In this document: piece after piece, positions 11,824-18,326 of the stretch
How the letters are laid out: every line of letters starts with the position of its first letter
Position numbering within the stretch: position 1 is the stretch's first letter
IMG/VR virus record: IMGVR_UViG_3300035216_000363
Location: 1 to 21,989 of that record
DNA length: 21,989 bases
Reading direction: 5' to 3' (one strand)
Origin: a virus
Translations under genes and position numbers: made by a program
Notes under the pieces: generated by a model
What the model was told of the DNA's origin: nothing
The model's input: only the letters and a program-made list of their open reading frames with translations
Database searches by the model: none

Positions 11824-13497
11824 TTAAAATGGTAAACTGTCGGTTATTACTTCAAACTTTTTTGAAGCCAATGAAATGTCTTTATAAATTCCGCCGGCAT
11901 TAAAATCGGGCGCGATATCAAAATCGCCCAATTGTCCGTTTTCTTTTCGCTTAACCTTTTCAACATACATTTTCACAATGTCCGAATTATATTGGGTTTT
12001 TTGACCTATGCAACGAAATACAATCATTCCGTTATATGCTTTATTAAAGAAATCAGCGCTTCCGGATATATCATATAATGTTGGTTTTTTATAACTACCA
12101 TTATCCGATTCAATTTTTCTTGGATGCGCCACCAAAAATAAATGTGTGTTTGTTTGTTGACAAAATTGCGTTATTTGTGAAAGCGCTTTTCCAATGTAAG
12201 AATGATCACGTTGCGCCGAATGGTCAAGCATATTCCAGGGATCAATCACGCAAACGTTAATCCCCTTTTGAAATACTAAATCTCTAAACGCGTTTAATAT
12301 TCCTTCTAAAGTTAAATTTTCTAAATCAATTTTAACCCAAAAGAAATGATCTTGAATAAAATCTTTTGTTTGATTTAAATCATCGTTATTACAGTTTTTT
12401 TCATTTAATTTATTTGCGATTCGTTTTATATGTCCCTCATAAGGAAATGATTCAGGTGAAAACATAGCGCAACGCATATCATAACGCGTTGCCATATTGC
12501 AACATATTTGGTCAACAACATCAGATTTCCCGGCGTTTGGTATTCCGGTGACAACTGTCCATTCACCCGGTGACATTTTAAAGTAATTATCCGAGTTCGG
12601 CAAACCAATTGAATAGTTTTTGACGCCGTTTTCATTATAGTTCAAAACATTATCCCAAATGTTATCAATGTTTAAAATGCCTTCTAATGGAAAGTTTTTA
12701 GCGCCTTTAATTATATTACGCAACGTTTCACCCCCCTTTGACATTAAAACCTCGTTAGCGTCTTTAAAATCACCAAATTCAACGTATTTACAACGATAAG
12801 CGCCAAACCTTCGGGCCAATTCATTGCGGAGTTCGATTCCCGGATTGTCATTGTCGGTGCAAATTATAATCTGTTTTTTATCTTTAAAATATTCAAAACA
12901 ATTATCTAAATATTCTAAACGTTGATTTCCTTTTGATGCACCATTTGGAACGCTACAAACGGAATACAAACCGGATTCGTGTAATGAAAGCGCATCCATT
13001 TCCCCTTCAACAATGTAAACGGTTTCCATTTCTTTGACATTGTCAAGTCCGTAAAAAACCAATTCAGCGCCGGAAACCATTTTAAAATTCTTTTCAGAAT
13101 CCCGATATTTTACATTTAACAACTCATTATCACGATAATAATTGAAATTAATTGCGCGCCGCTTTTTACCAACTTGCGGAAAAAACTGCAATGATTCGCC
13201 AATTTTCCAATGAACCAAAGTTGGTTCTGTTATCCCTCGTTTATTAAACCATTCAACAACTCGCGATGTCAAATTTACTTTTATTTTTTCGGGTTTAACG
13301 TATTCGGGTTTTTTCTGAAATTTAGTTGTGCCGCTGAATCCGCAATTGTGACAATTAAATAAACCCTGATCTAAATCAACGGACAAACATTTATCGCGTT
13401 TGTTTTTTCGTGTTGCGCTACATTCCGGACATTGCGTTTTTATTTTGCCGGTTGATTTATTGCCGACATCAATATTAAAATCGTTAAAAGTTTTCAT
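11824..13497 (-). CDS. Bifunctional primase-helicase (T7 gp4/Twinkle-like)
   Basis: A 557-residue protein with three parts. Zinc-binding: C23-x2-C26 and C49-x2-C52. TOPRIM: IVEGEMDAL (E165) and IICTDNDNPG (D215). RecA-like helicase: Walker A GIPNAGKS (318-325), Walker B VCVIDP (D419), and LFLVAHPRK (453-461). It unwinds DNA at the fork and primes synthesis; no phage polymerase is visible here, so the host's may be used. The last residues, EVITDSLPF, resemble the acidic -PF tail of SSB proteins. It lies 46 bases after the nuclease gene, with a CTATAAC leader before the ATG. Confidence 0.93.
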   Translation of the reverse strand: MKTFNDFNIDVGNKSTGKIKTQCPECSATRKNKRDKCLSVDLDQGLFNCHNCGFSGTTKFQKKPEYVKPEKIKVNLTSRVVEWFNKRGITEPTLVHWKIGESLQFFPQVGKKRRAINFNYYRDNELLNVKYRDSEKNFKMVSGAELVFYGLDNVKEMETVYIVEGEMDALSLHESGLYSVCSVPNGASKGNQRLEYLDNCFEYFKDKKQIIICTDNDNPGIELRNELARRFGAYRCKYVEFGDFKDANEVLMSKGGETLRNIIKGAKNFPLEGILNIDNIWDNVLNYNENGVKNYSIGLPNSDNYFKMSPGEWTVVTGIPNAGKSDVVDQICCNMATRYDMRCAMFSPESFPYEGHIKRIANKLNEKNCNNDDLNQTKDFIQDHFFWVKIDLENLTLEGILNAFRDLVFQKGINVCVIDPWNMLDHSAQRDHSYIGKALSQITQFCQQTNTHLFLVAHPRKIESDNGSYKKPTLYDISGSADFFNKAYNGMIVFRCIGQKTQYNSDIVKMYVEKVKRKENGQLGDFDIAPDFNAGGIYKDISLASKKFEVITDSLPF

Positions 13498-14063: not shown

Positions 14064-14984
14064 TTAATTTTTAATTATATAGGTTTTTAGTTCGTTAAAT
14101 TCATTGGTTTGCATTAATTGTCTTAAATGAAATTCAAATAGTTCACCGCCTTTTGTTTTGGCGCCTAATTCTTGTTTTCCATCCGCCGCGCTTGTATATA
14201 TAAAAAATTCATTTAACCCTTTTACTTTTTGGAATCCTATTGGTTTTGTGTTTGCCTTTTGCATCAACATAAAACGATCAATATATTTAATCCCGTTTTT
14301 ATCTAAATTTCTAAATTTTAAAATACTTAAAAAATTAGTTTGCCAGAAATCATCGGCCCTCAAAAACTTTGTGATATTGTAAACATCGCGCAAATCATAT
14401 TTATCAATTCTTTGAATTTTATCCAAGCACTCTAACCATCGGTTTTTTTGGTTTTGTGTTTTGGGCTTATATTGAATTGGAAATAATTCCACAAAATAAG
14501 GGAACGCCTTTAAAACGGTTGAATTGTATTGTGGCGTTTTCGATTTTGAGGGTATTTCTTTATTTAGTATTTCTTTAGTTATATAGTTTATATTAGTATT
14601 ACTTTGTTGCGGATTAACCGGCGCCGGTTTAACCGCCGCGGTTTTTACCGTTGCGGTTTTTCCCGTTGCGGTGGGCTTTACCTTCTTAGGTTTGTCATTT
14701 AGATAGTAATTATAACCGGCAAATTTTCCGCCTTTTCTTATTTCTTTACGAACTAAAAACCCCGAATTTATTAGTTCATTTAAACGCGTGTTAATGGCGT
14801 CTTTTCCATCCTTAAAATGACCGCAAATAAACTGAACGGTCATTTCTGTTTTCGCTTCGTGTGAAAAAAGCCAACAATATAATCCGGTTGCGCTTGATGA
14901 AATTCCTTTATGCCTGAATATAGTGTTCGGAACGATTGTGAATCTTTCGAATTTTTTTGGCTTATATATTTTGTTTATATCCAT
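14064..14984 (-). CDS. Replication initiator-like protein with winged helix and internal repeats
   Basis: A 306-residue protein. Residues 15-95 form a helix-turn-helix/winged-helix domain of the phage replication protein type: FTIVPNTIFRHKGISSSATGLYCWLFSH, TEMTVQFICGHFKDGKDAINTRLNELINSGFLVRKEI and a GKFAGYNYYL wing. Residues 105-127 form a Thr/Ala/Pro-rich linker of near-repeats (TATGK, TATVK, TAAVK, PAPVN, PQQ) encoded by in-frame 15-bp DNA repeats. The C-terminal half (about 135-306) is helical and mixed, and probably binds the helicase or its loader. As in lambda O, the repeats could be the origin. The promoter box is at 15075-15082 and a hairpin lies directly before the ATG. Confidence 0.78.
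   Translation of the reverse strand: MDINKIYKPKKFERFTIVPNTIFRHKGISSSATGLYCWLFSHEAKTEMTVQFICGHFKDGKDAINTRLNELINSGFLVRKEIRKGGKFAGYNYYLNDKPKKVKPTATGKTATVKTAAVKPAPVNPQQSNTNINYITKEILNKEIPSKSKTPQYNSTVLKAFPYFVELFPIQYKPKTQNQKNRWLECLDKIQRIDKYDLRDVYNITKFLRADDFWQTNFLSILKFRNLDKNGIKYIDRFMLMQKANTKPIGFQKVKGLNEFFIYTSAADGKQELGAKTKGGELFEFHLRQLMQTNEFNELKTYIIKN
14598..14672 (-). repeat. Iteron-like 15-bp repeats inside the initiator gene (candidate origin)
   Basis: On the minus strand: ACCGCAACGGGAAAA, ACCGCAACGGTAAAA, ACCGCGGCGGTTAAA, CCGGCGCCGGTTAAT, then a partial CCGCAACAAAG. The first four occupy 14672-14613 with an exact 15-base period. Units 3 and 4 are near or full palindromes. The G/C-rich cluster stands out in otherwise AT-rich DNA and shares CCGCAAC with sites in the gene's leader. 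Use as the replication origin is inferred. Confidence 0.65.
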
Positions 14985-14996
14985 AGTAAAAAAATA

Positions 14997-15038
14997 ACCC
15001 TATCAAATCAGCGGTTGCGGTCGCTTCATCAATAGGGT
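14997..15038 (-). promoter_or_regulatory. Leader hairpin before the initiator gene (terminator or attenuator-like)
   Basis: Outer arms ACCCTAT (14997-15003) and ATAGGGT (15032-15038), an internal loop, then inner arms AGCG (15010-15013) and CGCT (15022-15025) around GTTGCGGT. On the minus strand it runs into TTATTTTTTT and then the ATG of the initiator gene. Since the promoter box is upstream of it, it can act as an attenuator for that gene or as a terminator for the 81-residue gene. Confidence 0.6.
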
Positions 15039-15074
15039 ATTAAAAAAAGTTAATGTTGCCGCAACTCAACTTTG

Positions 15075-15082
15075 CAAATATA
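15075..15082 (-). promoter_or_regulatory. Promoter -7 box TATATTTG for the initiator gene
   Basis: A full TAnnTTTG match on the minus strand, 12 bases past the end of the 81-residue gene; a TTTG lies upstream at only 14 bases. The leader to ATG 14984 is about 90 bases, long for this genome, and holds the hairpin and a GTTGCcGCAAC palindrome (15055-15065). Confidence 0.5.
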
Positions 15083-15730: not shown

Positions 15731-15871
15731 TTATATTTCGTTATCCAAAACGCCAATTATCTTCCTAATTTCAGAACGTTCAAATTCGCCAATAAAAATT
15801 TTATCTTCAGAAATAAACGTTAATTTATAATAATCCTTTTTTGTTTTTTTTATTTTAATTTGTAACGCCAT
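15731..15871 (-). CDS. Small basic beta-rich protein (46 residues)
   Basis: An open frame from ATG 15871 to TAA 15731: MALQIKIKKTKKDYYKLTFI, then SEDKIFIGEFERSEIRKIIG, then VLDNEI. Two or three strands followed by a short helix, basic at the N-terminus. It overlaps the end of the DnaA-like gene by 17 bases and ends 2 bases before the VRR-NUC ATG, which is tight packing expected of a real gene. Family and function unknown; a small DNA-binding or nuclease partner protein is possible. Confidence 0.6.
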   Translation of the reverse strand: MALQIKIKKTKKDYYKLTFISEDKIFIGEFERSEIRKIIGVLDNEI

Positions 15872-16244
15872 TTTTTAATTTTTTATTTTCGTTTTTTAAT
15901 ATATCGTTTTCAATCAAAAGTGAATTATATTTATAAACCATTGATTCGGCGCTGATAGTATAATCATTTATTTCATTAAAAACAAGTTTTTTTAAATTTT
16001 CAAATCTTTGATTAAATGCTTTATCAAATCGAATCCAATCATCAATATTTTTTAAGCTGTGAATAACCGAAGCGTGATCACGCCCAACAGCTTCAGATAT
16101 CACTTTCATTGAAAACCTGGTTGTGTTACGCGCCAACCAATAAAATGCAGCTCGGGCCATTACAATATCTCTTTGCCTTGAGTTTTCACGAACATCAACA
16201 TTGTAGTAATTATTTACGTTTTTTATTAAATTTTCTAAGGTCAT
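15855..16244 (-). CDS. Stand-alone DnaA domain IV-like DNA-binding protein
   Basis: A 129-residue protein. Residues 1-72 match the C-terminal DNA-binding domain of DnaA: VNNYYNVDVRENSRQRDIVMARAAFYWLARNTTRFSMKVISEAVGRDHASVIHSLKNI, with the signature GRDHASVIHS (54-63). The AAA+ ATPase and other DnaA domains are missing, so it cannot drive melting alone; it may bind DnaA boxes, compete with or recruit the host machinery, or regulate genes. The C-terminus (about 95-125) is a coiled-coil helix (YKYNSLLIENDILKNENKKL) that could dimerise. It starts 2 bases after the exonuclease stop (TAA-N2-ATG). Confidence 0.87.
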   Translation of the reverse strand: MTLENLIKNVNNYYNVDVRENSRQRDIVMARAAFYWLARNTTRFSMKVISEAVGRDHASVIHSLKNIDDWIRFDKAFNQRFENLKKLVFNEINDYTISAESMVYKYNSLLIENDILKNENKKLKNGVTN

Positions 16245-16246
16245 TT

Positions 16247-17008
16247 TTATAGTATTAAAGATCCGTCATTATTAAATTCATTCCAAATAAAACCCGATAT
16301 AATTCCGGTTTCATCATATATTTTCCAATCATTAAAAGCACGCTGCCAACCTTTGCGCCCTTGGTCAATCATTTCATCGCTTAACGCGTAAACCTCAACA
16401 GAAAACGGCCAATTAGTTTCAACAGCTATAAATCGAAAGTTTTCAGCCGGAACGCCTAACATATCAGAATAAAAGGCGCATTGTAAATGATAGCCATATT
16501 TATAAACATCGCGGCGAAATGCAATTGGTGAATTATCTTGGCACGTTTTAACATCCGAAATAAAGTTTTCAACCCGGTTTAAAACATCGGGCCGAATGCG
16601 AACATCAATATCATCGTGTTTTTTGTAGTGTGAAAGCTCAATTTCGCCTTTGCAATATTTTTGGGCCAAATCGTGATTTCTAAAATTTTCTAAAATCTTT
16701 GTGATTTTGTTATGTTCATCAAAACCTAATAATAATTTTCCTTCAGCTTTTTTTGATTCGATTTCAAACGCTTCTTTTCCAGCTTTTGTACGGCGGTCAA
16801 TTTTTGGCATAATGTGATAATCTTTGTAATAAAGTTCGGGCTCTAACATAGCGCAATGAACCGCGGAACCCAATGCCATTGCGGATGATTCAAAAGGTTT
16901 TTGTTTTAAGAAATGATAAACAGATTTCTTGTGTATTGTTTTAAGGCCTGAAGCGCTTATTCCTGGTGATGAATGATATACTTCATTCGCGTCATATTGT
17001 GTTTTCAT
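16247..17008 (-). CDS. RecE/exonuclease VIII-like PD-(D/E)XK nuclease
   Basis: A 253-residue protein of the RecB/RecE nuclease fold found in phages as an exonuclease VIII-like domain. N-terminal YHSSPGISASGLKTI is typical of the family; H51 in ALGSAVHCAMLEP, D141 in RIRPDVL, D152-V-K154 in FISDVKTCQD, and the Q176-x3-Y180 motif in LQCAFYSDML complete the catalytic set. It should digest one strand of double-stranded DNA ends to give overhangs for the annealing protein at 17829-18326, forming a recombination pair with the SSB-like protein. A 38-residue gene and a 79-residue gene separate it from its partners. The leader is AAAACTATG. Confidence 0.9.
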   Translation of the reverse strand: MKTQYDANEVYHSSPGISASGLKTIHKKSVYHFLKQKPFESSAMALGSAVHCAMLEPELYYKDYHIMPKIDRRTKAGKEAFEIESKKAEGKLLLGFDEHNKITKILENFRNHDLAQKYCKGEIELSHYKKHDDIDVRIRPDVLNRVENFISDVKTCQDNSPIAFRRDVYKYGYHLQCAFYSDMLGVPAENFRFIAVETNWPFSVEVYALSDEMIDQGRKGWQRAFNDWKIYDETGIISGFIWNEFNNDGSLIL

Positions 17009-17012
17009 AGTT

Positions 17013-17129
17013 TTAACAGTCGTTTAAAATGTGATCGGTTTGTTCGTTAATAATTACTTTTAATTTTTCGATTTTGTTTTCCATCGCTTCAATGCGATAT
17101 TGCAGAAATTTAAGTGTTTCGTTGTTCAT
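17013..17129 (-). CDS. Small coiled-coil protein (38 residues)
   Basis: An open frame from ATG 17129 to TAA 17013: MNNETLKFLQYRIEAMENKI, then EKLKVIINEQTDHILNDC. A heptad-like spacing of hydrophobic residues (L6, L9, I13, M16, I20, L23, I26, I27) suggests a single dimerising helix. It starts right after the hairpin at 17145-17164 with the ACACTATG leader and ends 4 bases before the exonuclease ATG, so it is either a small partner protein of the exonuclease or a leader peptide for it. No family is known to me. Confidence 0.55.
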   Translation of the reverse strand: MNNETLKFLQYRIEAMENKIEKLKVIINEQTDHILNDC

Positions 17130-17144
17130 AGTGTTTAAATTAAA

Positions 17145-17164
17145 AGGGAGCTTTTATACTCCCT
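17145..17164 (-). terminator. Hairpin AGGGAG/CTCCCT, copy B (possible terminator)
   Basis: AGGGAG (17145-17150), 8-base loop, CTCCCT (17159-17164), followed on the minus strand by TTTAATTT. Same arms and nearly the same loop as copy A at 2319-2338. It lies 15 bases after the stop of the 79-residue gene. Confidence 0.6.
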
Positions 17165-17179
17165 ATTTAGTTTATTATT

Positions 17180-17419
17180 TTAGATATTATCTTGATCTAA
17201 GTGATAACTACTTGATCCGTTTGGAAATTCTCCGATCCAGATTAACTCTTTTTTGTAAAGAGATCCTAAGACGCCCTTTAATTCGTTTTTAGTACCGTTA
17301 AAGCTATCTAATATCGTGTCAAAACACTCTGTTGGAGTTTCCTCATATTCATCACCTTGAGATATGATAGTTAATACTTTTTTTTCTAATGCTGTAATGT
17401 TTAAATTTAAAGTTGTCAT
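17180..17419 (-). CDS. Small winged-helix-like DNA-binding protein (79 residues)
   Basis: A protein from ATG 17419 (MTTLNLNITALEKKVLTIIS...). Residues 9-20 form a first helix, TKNELKGVLGSLYKKELIWIGE (about 43-64) reads as a recognition helix plus the start of a wing, and GSSSYHLD as the second wing strand, so a winged-helix transcription factor fold is likely. An ATG nine codons further upstream (17446) is possible, but the later start is chosen because its surroundings match those of the 68-residue gene exactly and leave a sensible leader. It has its own strong promoter. Two direct repeats over the -33 box could be its operator. It sits between SSB and exonuclease as a separate unit. Confidence 0.65.
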   Translation of the reverse strand: MTTLNLNITALEKKVLTIISQGDEYEETPTECFDTILDSFNGTKNELKGVLGSLYKKELIWIGEFPNGSSSYHLDQDNI

Positions 17420-17456
17420 AATATTTGTTTTTGATTGCAGCTTCATTGCTACACTC

Positions 17457-17488
17457 CAAAGATATATATTATTTTACTTATAAACAAA
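17457..17488 (-). promoter_or_regulatory. Near-consensus Bacteroidota promoter for the 79-residue gene
   Basis: The minus strand has TTTG (17488-17485), 20 bases, then TATCTTTG (17464-17457), matching the primary Bacteroidota consensus (TTTG-N19-21-TAnnTTTG) completely. It is the best promoter in the window. Confidence 0.8.
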
Positions 17489-17500
17489 TAATAAACAAAT
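17480..17500. repeat. Tandem 10-bp direct repeats over the -33 box (possible operator)
   Basis: ATAAACAAAT at 17480-17489 and again at 17491-17500 on the plus strand, an 11-base period (about one helical turn). The first copy contains the -33 TTTG of the promoter, so a bound protein would compete with RNA polymerase. Confidence 0.55.
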
Positions 17501-17526
17501 TATTTTCAAAATAATGTAAAAAAAAA

Positions 17527-17546
17527 GCGATCCCCGAAGGAACCGC
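17527..17546 (-). terminator. Terminator with a UUCG loop after the SSB-like gene
   Basis: The minus strand has GCGGTTCC, TTCG, GGGATCGC, then nine T: an 8-bp stem with two G-U pairs and the very stable UUCG loop. It lies about 27 bases after the SSB-like stop and ends the early recombination unit. Confidence 0.92.
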
Positions 17547-17572
17547 CAATTGTTTTGAATGTCAATAATTAA

Positions 17573-17821
17573 TTAAAACGGTAAATCATCACCGCCTTCA
17601 GCAACCGGCGCCGCTTCTTGTTTAACATAAACATCACTTAATTTCAATGAAAAGAATTTTCCTTTTGCGCCTTCTTTAACCCAAGCCGCAATTTGTTGTT
17701 CGGTTCCATCTTGTAATTTAATCGTTCCCGAATATTCAGGTTGATTGTCTGAAGTTTTGTTTGTGTTCTTGAATAAACTTCCGTTTCCATTTTGGTGTTC
17801 GTACTTTTTTTCGATACTCAT
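17573..17821 (-). CDS. SSB-like protein with an acidic DDLPF tail
   Basis: An 82-residue protein. Residues 12-63 have a short beta-barrel-like pattern (GNGSLFKNT, PEYSGTIKLQDGTEQQIAAW, KGKFFSLKLSD), as in small phage single-strand-binding or DUF736-like proteins. The end, EGGDDLPF, is the typical SSB C-terminal tip through which SSB recruits partners. It is too short for a full classical SSB but keeps both elements. It lies 7 bases after the annealing protein gene. It probably coats single-stranded DNA made by the exonuclease or at the fork and links to the host proteins. Confidence 0.72.
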   Translation of the reverse strand: MSIEKKYEHQNGNGSLFKNTNKTSDNQPEYSGTIKLQDGTEQQIAAWVKEGAKGKFFSLKLSDVYVKQEAAPVAEGGDDLPF

Positions 17822-17828
17822 TTTTTAT

Positions 17829-18326
17829 TTATTTTAAATTAAACTTACTTACTATTTTATCTTTATATTCTTTTTTCATTTTAAAGGTGTTTAAAACCTT
17901 TTCCGCTTGGTCTTTAGTAGCTTTTAAAGTTGCGTTTAATTGCGCTTCCGTTAACCACTTCTTATCATCTTTTGGCGCCGTTGTTTGATTCTTAACGGCG
18001 TTCTGTACTTCATTAGCTGAAGCGATTGACGTATCAATTCCAATACCTAAATAACCCAATGCGCGGCCCAATGCTGAAGTGAAACCGTTTTCGACAAATG
18101 ATGTTTTATTAATATAACTTGAATCCCTATATTCTTGGGCGTGTGCTGATGCAATTTCAAATCCTTCGTGATTTAATATTGTCACCTTAAAAATTCCTTC
18201 TTTATCATCAATTGAAACAATTGTTTCGCTAATTTGCCAACCTTCAAATTGTTCTTGACTTCTAAAATAAATTAATCGTTCGTTAACTGTAATGTAATCT
18301 TTACCTTTAATGTTAATTGTTTTCAT
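17829..18326 (-). CDS. Single-strand annealing protein (Rad52/Erf-like)
   Basis: A 165-residue protein. The N-terminal 110 residues have features of phage annealing proteins: GKDYITVNERLIYFR, EGWQISETIVSIDDKEGIFKVTILNHEG, then SYINKTSFVENGFTSALGRALGYLGIGID, where the ENxxTSALGRALG segment resembles Erf and Sak/Rad52-type proteins. The C-terminal part (about 120-165) is a basic helical tail. Such proteins anneal complementary strands at resected ends. Context supports this: an SSB-like gene follows and a RecE-like exonuclease lies in the same region. Which annealing family it belongs to cannot be decided by eye. Confidence 0.7.
   Translation of the reverse strand: MKTINIKGKDYITVNERLIYFRSQEQFEGWQISETIVSIDDKEGIFKVTILNHEGFEIASAHAQEYRDSSYINKTSFVENGFTSALGRALGYLGIGIDTSIASANEVQNAVKNQTTAPKDDKKWLTEAQLNATLKATKDQAEKVLNTFKMKKEYKDKIVSKFNLK

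Follow-up and report, generated by a model that had tools for sequence, protein, structure and literature searches.

The initiator gene and its surroundings

The window, a virus record of 21,989 bases, carries a replication initiator gene, listed here with its parts and some further genes:

14064–14984, minus strand: initiator gene, 306 aa, encoding an N-terminal winged helix (HTH_36), a predicted disordered linker and a C-terminal half (Pfam, PHROG, AF2)
14694–14984, minus strand: N-terminal winged-helix DNA-binding domain, residues 1–97 (VIA-align structure matches)
14067–14537, minus strand: C-terminal half, conserved among relatives and retained through swaps of the DNA-binding domain; DnaD-like by sequence profile only
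11824–13497: phage primase-helicase (PHROG)
15855–16244, minus strand: 129-aa protein carrying domain IV of DnaA, its C-terminal DNA-binding part, but lacking the ATPase
16247–18326, minus strand: recombination module, comprising proteins that resemble exonuclease VIII and SSB as well as a conserved phage protein of unknown function

The initiator matched HTH_36 in Pfam (E = 8e-6, 25.9 bits; cutoff 25), as did its relatives L136, L149 and L129 with 32–45 bits. RepA_N (PF06970) was not found, HTH_36 being the only Pfam family returned at E up to 0.1. Against PHROG, DnaD-like helicase loader/replication initiation proteins (E 5e-13 to 2e-9, with matches extending as far as residue 239) scored better than O-like families (E 1e-4 to 0.09). 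VIA-align comparisons of the N-terminal domain returned domain 1 of RctB (Z 9.0), the staphylococcal Rep initiators 4pql (Z 8.2) and 4pt7 (Z 7.9) and the Rep-DNA complex 5kbj (Z 7.7), values of 7.7–8.2 to 4pql and 5kbj lying in the range usual for common winged helices. At Z of 7 to 9, the modeled domain shows a suggestive resemblance to the winged helices with which RctB and staphylococcal Rep recognize repeats at their origins.

Between the two folded parts, AF2 gave pLDDT below 50 at residues 102–137 and 142–151, and the linker (102–151) is accordingly predicted to be disordered. A fold search with the C-terminal half returned no clear structural match, which is no sign of a new fold; the label "DnaD-like loader" therefore rests on PHROG profiles. 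The C-terminal half had no match in plasmids, and a search for the initiator in 199 genomes from the family of L071 recovered the seed genome only.

An array of inverted repeats inside the initiator gene

The initiator gene contains two adjoining elements, of which the array lies about 310 bp into it:

14617–14672, minus strand: iteron array of four ACCG-N3/4-CGGT inverted repeats (units 14662–14672, 14647–14657, 14632–14642 and 14617–14628; 14–15 bp apart)
14552–14601, minus strand: AT-rich stretch adjoining the iterons, a likely unwinding element (least stable 50-mer of the gene)

An earlier note on this DNA had described four repeat units of exact 15-bp periodicity within the initiator gene, and on the plus strand this is what we found: units start at 14617 (ACCGGCGCCGGT), 14632 (ACCGCCGCGGT), 14647 (ACCGTTGCGGT) and 14662 (CCCGTTGCGGT), with a period of exactly 15 bp, and a degenerate half unit, GTTGCGGAT, is present at 14606. 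The coding strand reads ACCGCAACGGG, ACCGCAACGGT, ACCGCGGCGGT and ACCGGCGCCGGT, separated by A-rich spacers; unit 4 is out of frame with units 1–3 (frames 0,0,0,2). The note had also placed the repeats in a linker between the DNA-binding half and the C-terminal half, and in a G/C-rich island within AT-rich DNA; both observations hold, the island being 47% AT compared with 67% for the whole gene. Its proposed iteron core, CCGCAAC, was rejected: the core common to the units is the palindrome ACCG-N3/4-CGGT.

The array was compared with 20,000 synonymous recodings drawn from the codon usage of the phage itself. Palindromes were in excess, both exact ones (P = 0.001) and those with at most one mismatch (P = 0.007), and so were ACCG/CGGT half sites (P = 0.002); the lag-15 score was reached by 10 of 200 recodings. 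The palindrome excess in the window alone is thus significant yet moderate (P 0.001–0.007). A palindrome search of the whole window gave 6 matches with at most one mismatch, compared with 3.1 expected, a nonsignificant difference, so that significance rests on the clustering of the units and on their relatives.

The 50-mer that starts at 14552 and reaches the edge of the array marks the minimum of stability of the gene and ranks among the least stable 0.05% of the record. The corresponding stretch was more AT-rich than the remaining gene in 25/25 genes examined. Positions 14552–14605 also form an AT-rich near-repeat of 15 bp beside the iterons (3.7 copies, consensus GTATTACTTTATTTA).

The repeats persist across reading frames in relatives

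Relatives were gathered as 26 close loci, 44 stretches recovered via the leader motif described below (some of them chance matches), 80 loci found by profile scan and 3 from cellular assemblies. Pooling yielded 74 distinct sequences of the initiator gene, not all of them complete. Since near-duplicates are frequent among the loci, counts do not represent independent events. Two of the relatives, L070 and L072, come from assemblies labeled Woesearchaeota and Rhodobiaceae and are probably misbinned phage contigs. Units of the group with the window's type of DNA-binding domain were collected at up to 2 mismatches, and their base counts are therefore conserved partly by construction.

In the group that shares the window's DNA-binding domain, ACCG-N3/4-CGGT units occupy all three reading frames. 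In L088 and L063 a single array covers all three (1,1,0,2), and in L099 every unit is in frame 2. The encoded peptides differ accordingly: units one and two of L088 give HRNRKNRDG and the next ones TATV and PGPV, and every unit of L099 encodes a KPAPV-like peptide. Adjacent out-of-frame units at lag 14 are identical at 23/24 positions in L088 and at 22/24 in L063, a score reached by 0/200 synonymous recodings in each case. The AT-rich stretch is frame-shifted as well in L086–L088, where AAGAAATACTAA encodes KEIL in some and KRNT in others. In the distant initiators L108, L117, L118, L122 and L123 the recognition helices are altered and so are the repeats, and L129 has CCGANGTSGG-like boxes in three frames.

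The arrangement could in principle reflect a useful Lys/Thr/Ala/Pro linker, with similarity of the DNA as a by-product of codon use or repeat slippage. Many units are indeed in frame and KTATV-like, and low-complexity linkers are common among HTH_36 phage initiators. However, frame shifts change the peptide while the DNA stays (HRNRKNRDG vs TATGKTATV; LLKKS vs PIEEKL), the units of L129 read TEVG, RSR and PMSE, and a codon-preserving null fails to account for the repeats; we consider such a protein-level origin very unlikely. The earlier note had held that relatives keeping a Thr/Ala linker in other codons and lacking DNA repeats would speak against an origin here. The alignments gave the opposite outcome, with DNA repeats retained and peptide and frame varying. 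As judged from these comparisons, the repeats are selected as DNA, the encoded peptide being a tolerant, disordered linker.

DNA-binding domain, repeats and AT-rich stretch are exchanged together

A sister class of initiators combines the same C-terminal half with another winged helix, likewise HTH_36 wherever tested (L024/L136, L062/L135, L133, L137, L138, L149, L071 and L072). Its members lack ACCG-N3/4-CGGT and carry instead three CCTATTGAAGAAAAGTT-like units of about 24 bp. The spacing of the first and second units is 22 bp, which 3 does not divide, and the first is therefore in a different reading frame. At this lag of 22, adjacent 24-bp units are identical at 24/24 positions in L137 and in L149 (0/200 recodings); in L137 identical substitutions occur in all three units, across frames.

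Three pairs of loci, L099/L136, L100/L149 and L092/L072, are related by swaps. They share approximately 40%–50% identity over the DNA-binding domain, the repeats and the AT-rich stretch and approximately 93%–96% from immediately past the AT-rich stretch, where the breakpoints coincide, through the C-terminal half; in L099/L136 the upstream leader is also approximately 97% identical. Since domain, repeats and AT-rich stretch travel together in these pairwise alignments, they make up one exchangeable specificity cassette. Such natural exchange of initiator specificity and origin as a unit suggests why origins reside in initiator genes.

A putative origin carried within its own initiator gene

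We propose, with a probability of roughly 0.85, that the array is the initiator-binding part of the phage replication origin, carried within the initiator's own gene. The locus has repeats between the two halves of the initiator, constraint at the DNA level and an AT-rich neighbor of low predicted stability. Two N-terminal winged-helix molecules would bind each ACCG-N3/4-CGGT inverted repeat, and, with several units occupied and A-tracts between them, a nucleoprotein complex would arise that melts the adjoining AT-rich stretch. The C-terminal half of the initiator would then recruit the phage's own primase-helicase (11824–13497). We infer each of these activities of the initiator, namely repeat binding, melting and helicase recruitment; for binding, the joint exchange of domain and repeats is indirect evidence. 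GC skew was uninformative on the origin: nearly all genes lie on one strand, and the skew accumulates one way with no turning point.

The array might instead be a binding site with a non-origin function, serving autoregulation by the initiator, the phage DnaA-domain-IV-like protein or a host protein. Operator sites are typically inverted repeats, and the DnaA-domain-IV-like gene (15855–16244) is nearby. Against this, the array lies within the gene and away from the promoter, its units are unlike DnaA boxes, and it is exchanged along with the DNA-binding domain of the initiator and the AT-rich stretch. We regard a non-origin role as unlikely. If the array is the origin, it is sequence evidence of unusual clarity for DNA-level selection on an origin within a coding region, regardless of reading frame.

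A leader RNA with complementary loops precedes the initiator

Upstream of the initiator gene, the 7-mer CCGCAAC and its complement recur within the following predicted elements:

14997–15070, minus strand: leader RNA at the head of the initiator mRNA, whose transcription is predicted to start at 15070 (pairing and covariation)
15075–15082, minus strand: predicted promoter box of the Bacteroidetes −7 type, TATATTTG (nearly every leader has TAnnTTTG)
15055–15070, minus strand: leader hairpin 1, loop GTTGCGG at 15059–15065 (compensatory changes in all 4 stem pairs)
14997–15038, minus strand: leader hairpin 2, loop CCGCAAC at 15014–15020, followed by a U-rich run until the start codon (folding, covariation and loop complementarity)

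Viewed on the plus strand, the upstream copies are GTTGCGG at 15014 and CCGCAAC at 15059. Hairpin 1 of the window begins 4 nt past the TATATTTG box; over the leaders this gap is 0–5 nt, mostly 4, and L063 has no recognizable box. TAnnTTTG occupies positions −12 to −5 in Flavobacterium psychrophilum (PMC9723704), which makes the predicted +1 the first base of hairpin 1.

In 22 aligned leaders, 97.5% of cells were paired (slid controls, 31%–58%), seven pairs were changed on both sides, and covariation was 0.187 compared with 0.099 for shuffled alignments (0/500). Pairing in the antisense strand reached 90.1%, and conserved U-G/G-U pairs are possible in the sense strand only. The leader stands in front of 40 distinct initiator genes, and loops 1 and 2 are fully complementary in 40/40 leaders, 38 of them Watson-Crick throughout and 2 with one G-U; random re-pairing of the 40 gave a mean of 23. 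There are six distinct loop pairs, including GTTGCGG/CCGCAAC, GTCGTGG/CCACGAC, GTCGAGG/CCTCGAC and GTCAAGG/CCTTGAC. The changes affect three loop positions, and re-pairing of the six succeeds in 4/720 orders owing to G-U tolerance, so that few independent events are represented. Single-sequence folding recovered both hairpins in 7/8 relatives, L103 folding differently; for the window, the prediction gives hairpin 1 a longer, alternative stem. Some initiators have no leader, their start codon following directly after the upstream gene or a promoter-like box.

No Rfam covariance model reached its gathering score at the leader; what matches there were, with E up to 5, stayed below threshold and at chance level. 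The leader was not found in deposited phages or in the three assemblies behind L070–L072 (the latter a search without positive control). In L136, positions 401–504 weakly matched the leader of ribosomal protein L20, with 32 bits where the curated cutoff is 58.7.

The earlier note had read the upstream CCGCAAC as a further copy of the iteron element, but it varies with its partner loop and not with the iterons. Their pairing pattern assigns the upstream copies to a leader RNA of the sense strand, in which the loops of two hairpins would pair over 7 bp. This leader probably tunes initiator expression. It would do so, on a reading we favor slightly, by switching translation or transcription: pairing between the loops would govern how accessible the start codon is, or would stabilize or destabilize hairpin 2 as a terminator. 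Its location between the predicted +1 and the ATG, the covarying loops and the U-rich run before the ATG are consistent with this. There are also plasmid precedents in the pseudoknot-controlled repZ of ColIb-P9 (as described in works cited in PMC10724649) and in the RNA-controlled pSK41 rep leader (PMC5703833). Some relatives lack the leader, however, and hairpin 2 was not among the hits of a terminator scan; we retain a simple intrinsic terminator as an option. Less probably, the leader is a 5′-terminal stabilizer that shields the initiator mRNA from decay with no switching. In its favor, nearly all leaders have hairpin 1 starting on the predicted +1 or beside it, but a stabilizer needs no 7-bp loop-loop pairing maintained by compensatory changes, and we hold it to be doubtful. 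That the upstream copies are extra iterons, with the origin extending into the leader, is highly improbable: the 7-mer is identical to that in the array units of the window, but the upstream copies sit in hairpin loops, change together independently of the iterons, are accompanied by conserved G-U pairs that only sense RNA can form, and belong to a leader that precedes both domain classes (L099 and L136).

Compared with the origin-in-gene architecture, the leader is the newer part of these findings. We see about an even chance that it represents an undescribed class of regulatory RNA, in which a 7-bp loop-loop lock at the mRNA start switches initiator synthesis. Uncultured Bacteroidetes phages would thereby have a plasmid-type replication control coupled to an exchangeable initiator-plus-origin cassette. 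The covarying leader is a candidate new RNA family controlling phage replication.

Comparison with known replication systems

The earlier note had likened the locus to lambda O. Iterons of lambda have inverted symmetry. In ori-lambda, iterons with A-tracts and an AT-rich region lie in the middle of the initiator gene O (PMC7466680). The window shares the intragenic repeats with A-tracts and the adjoining AT-rich region, but its units are 11–12 bp at 14–15 bp, its similarity to O-like PHROG families is weak, and the phage has its own primase-helicase. Lambda stands as a fair and classical analog; the Rep proteins of staphylococcal pSK41 and pPR9 are closer.

The N-terminal winged helix of pSK41 Rep binds four boxes in the center of the rep gene, the protein can do without the linker encoded there, the C-terminal domain is conserved, and the leader is RNA controlled (PMC5703833). 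As in this RepA_N plasmid system of staphylococci, the boxes of the window lie mid-gene between a winged helix and a conserved C-terminal domain, and staphylococcal Rep structures rank among the best fold matches of the window's N-terminal domain. The systems differ in that the window protein, from a phage rather than a plasmid, matches HTH_36 and not RepA_N, and has another box sequence, a C-terminal half unrelated by detectable sequence and a leader of another kind. In pPR9, an HTH_36 domain and its origin have replaced those of pSK41, with the C-terminal domain and upstream control region retained (PMC5703833). The HTH_36 domain and the putative origin are likewise exchanged jointly in L099/L136, although there the C-terminal family and the host are different.

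In leaders of the ColIb-P9 type, an upstream hairpin loop pairs with a stretch just before the initiator start. The phage leaders resemble them in that the loop of hairpin 1 can pair with one close to the start codon (40/40 leaders); the sequences are unrelated, and the likeness drawn here concerns loop pairing alone, apart from antisense RNA and leader peptide. According to works cited in PMC10724649, the rep leaders of ColIb-P9, IncB and IncL/M form pseudoknots.

Linker repeats in deposited phages

In a survey of twelve deposited, unrelated phages with HTH_36-type initiators (L150–L161), most had linker repeats at the same place, often with a lag of 15 bp; for several the score was not above the synonymous null, which makes the survey only a lead. 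Those with linker repeats include Bacteroides, Geobacillus, Enterococcus, Pontimonas and other phages. Linker repeats that break the reading frame of HTH_36 initiators may offer a way to find the origins of uncultured phages from sequence. In two of the surveyed phages the repeats are out of frame, with lags that 3 does not divide: Cellulophaga phage phi18:3 at lag 11, with 24/24, and Gordonia phage Clawz at lag 14. For the phage of the window, a Bacteroidetes host is suggested by the match to phi18:3, by the promoter type and by L071, which comes from a Flavobacteriaceae assembly. Cellulophaga phage phi18:3 likewise has a DnaA-like gene near its initiator.
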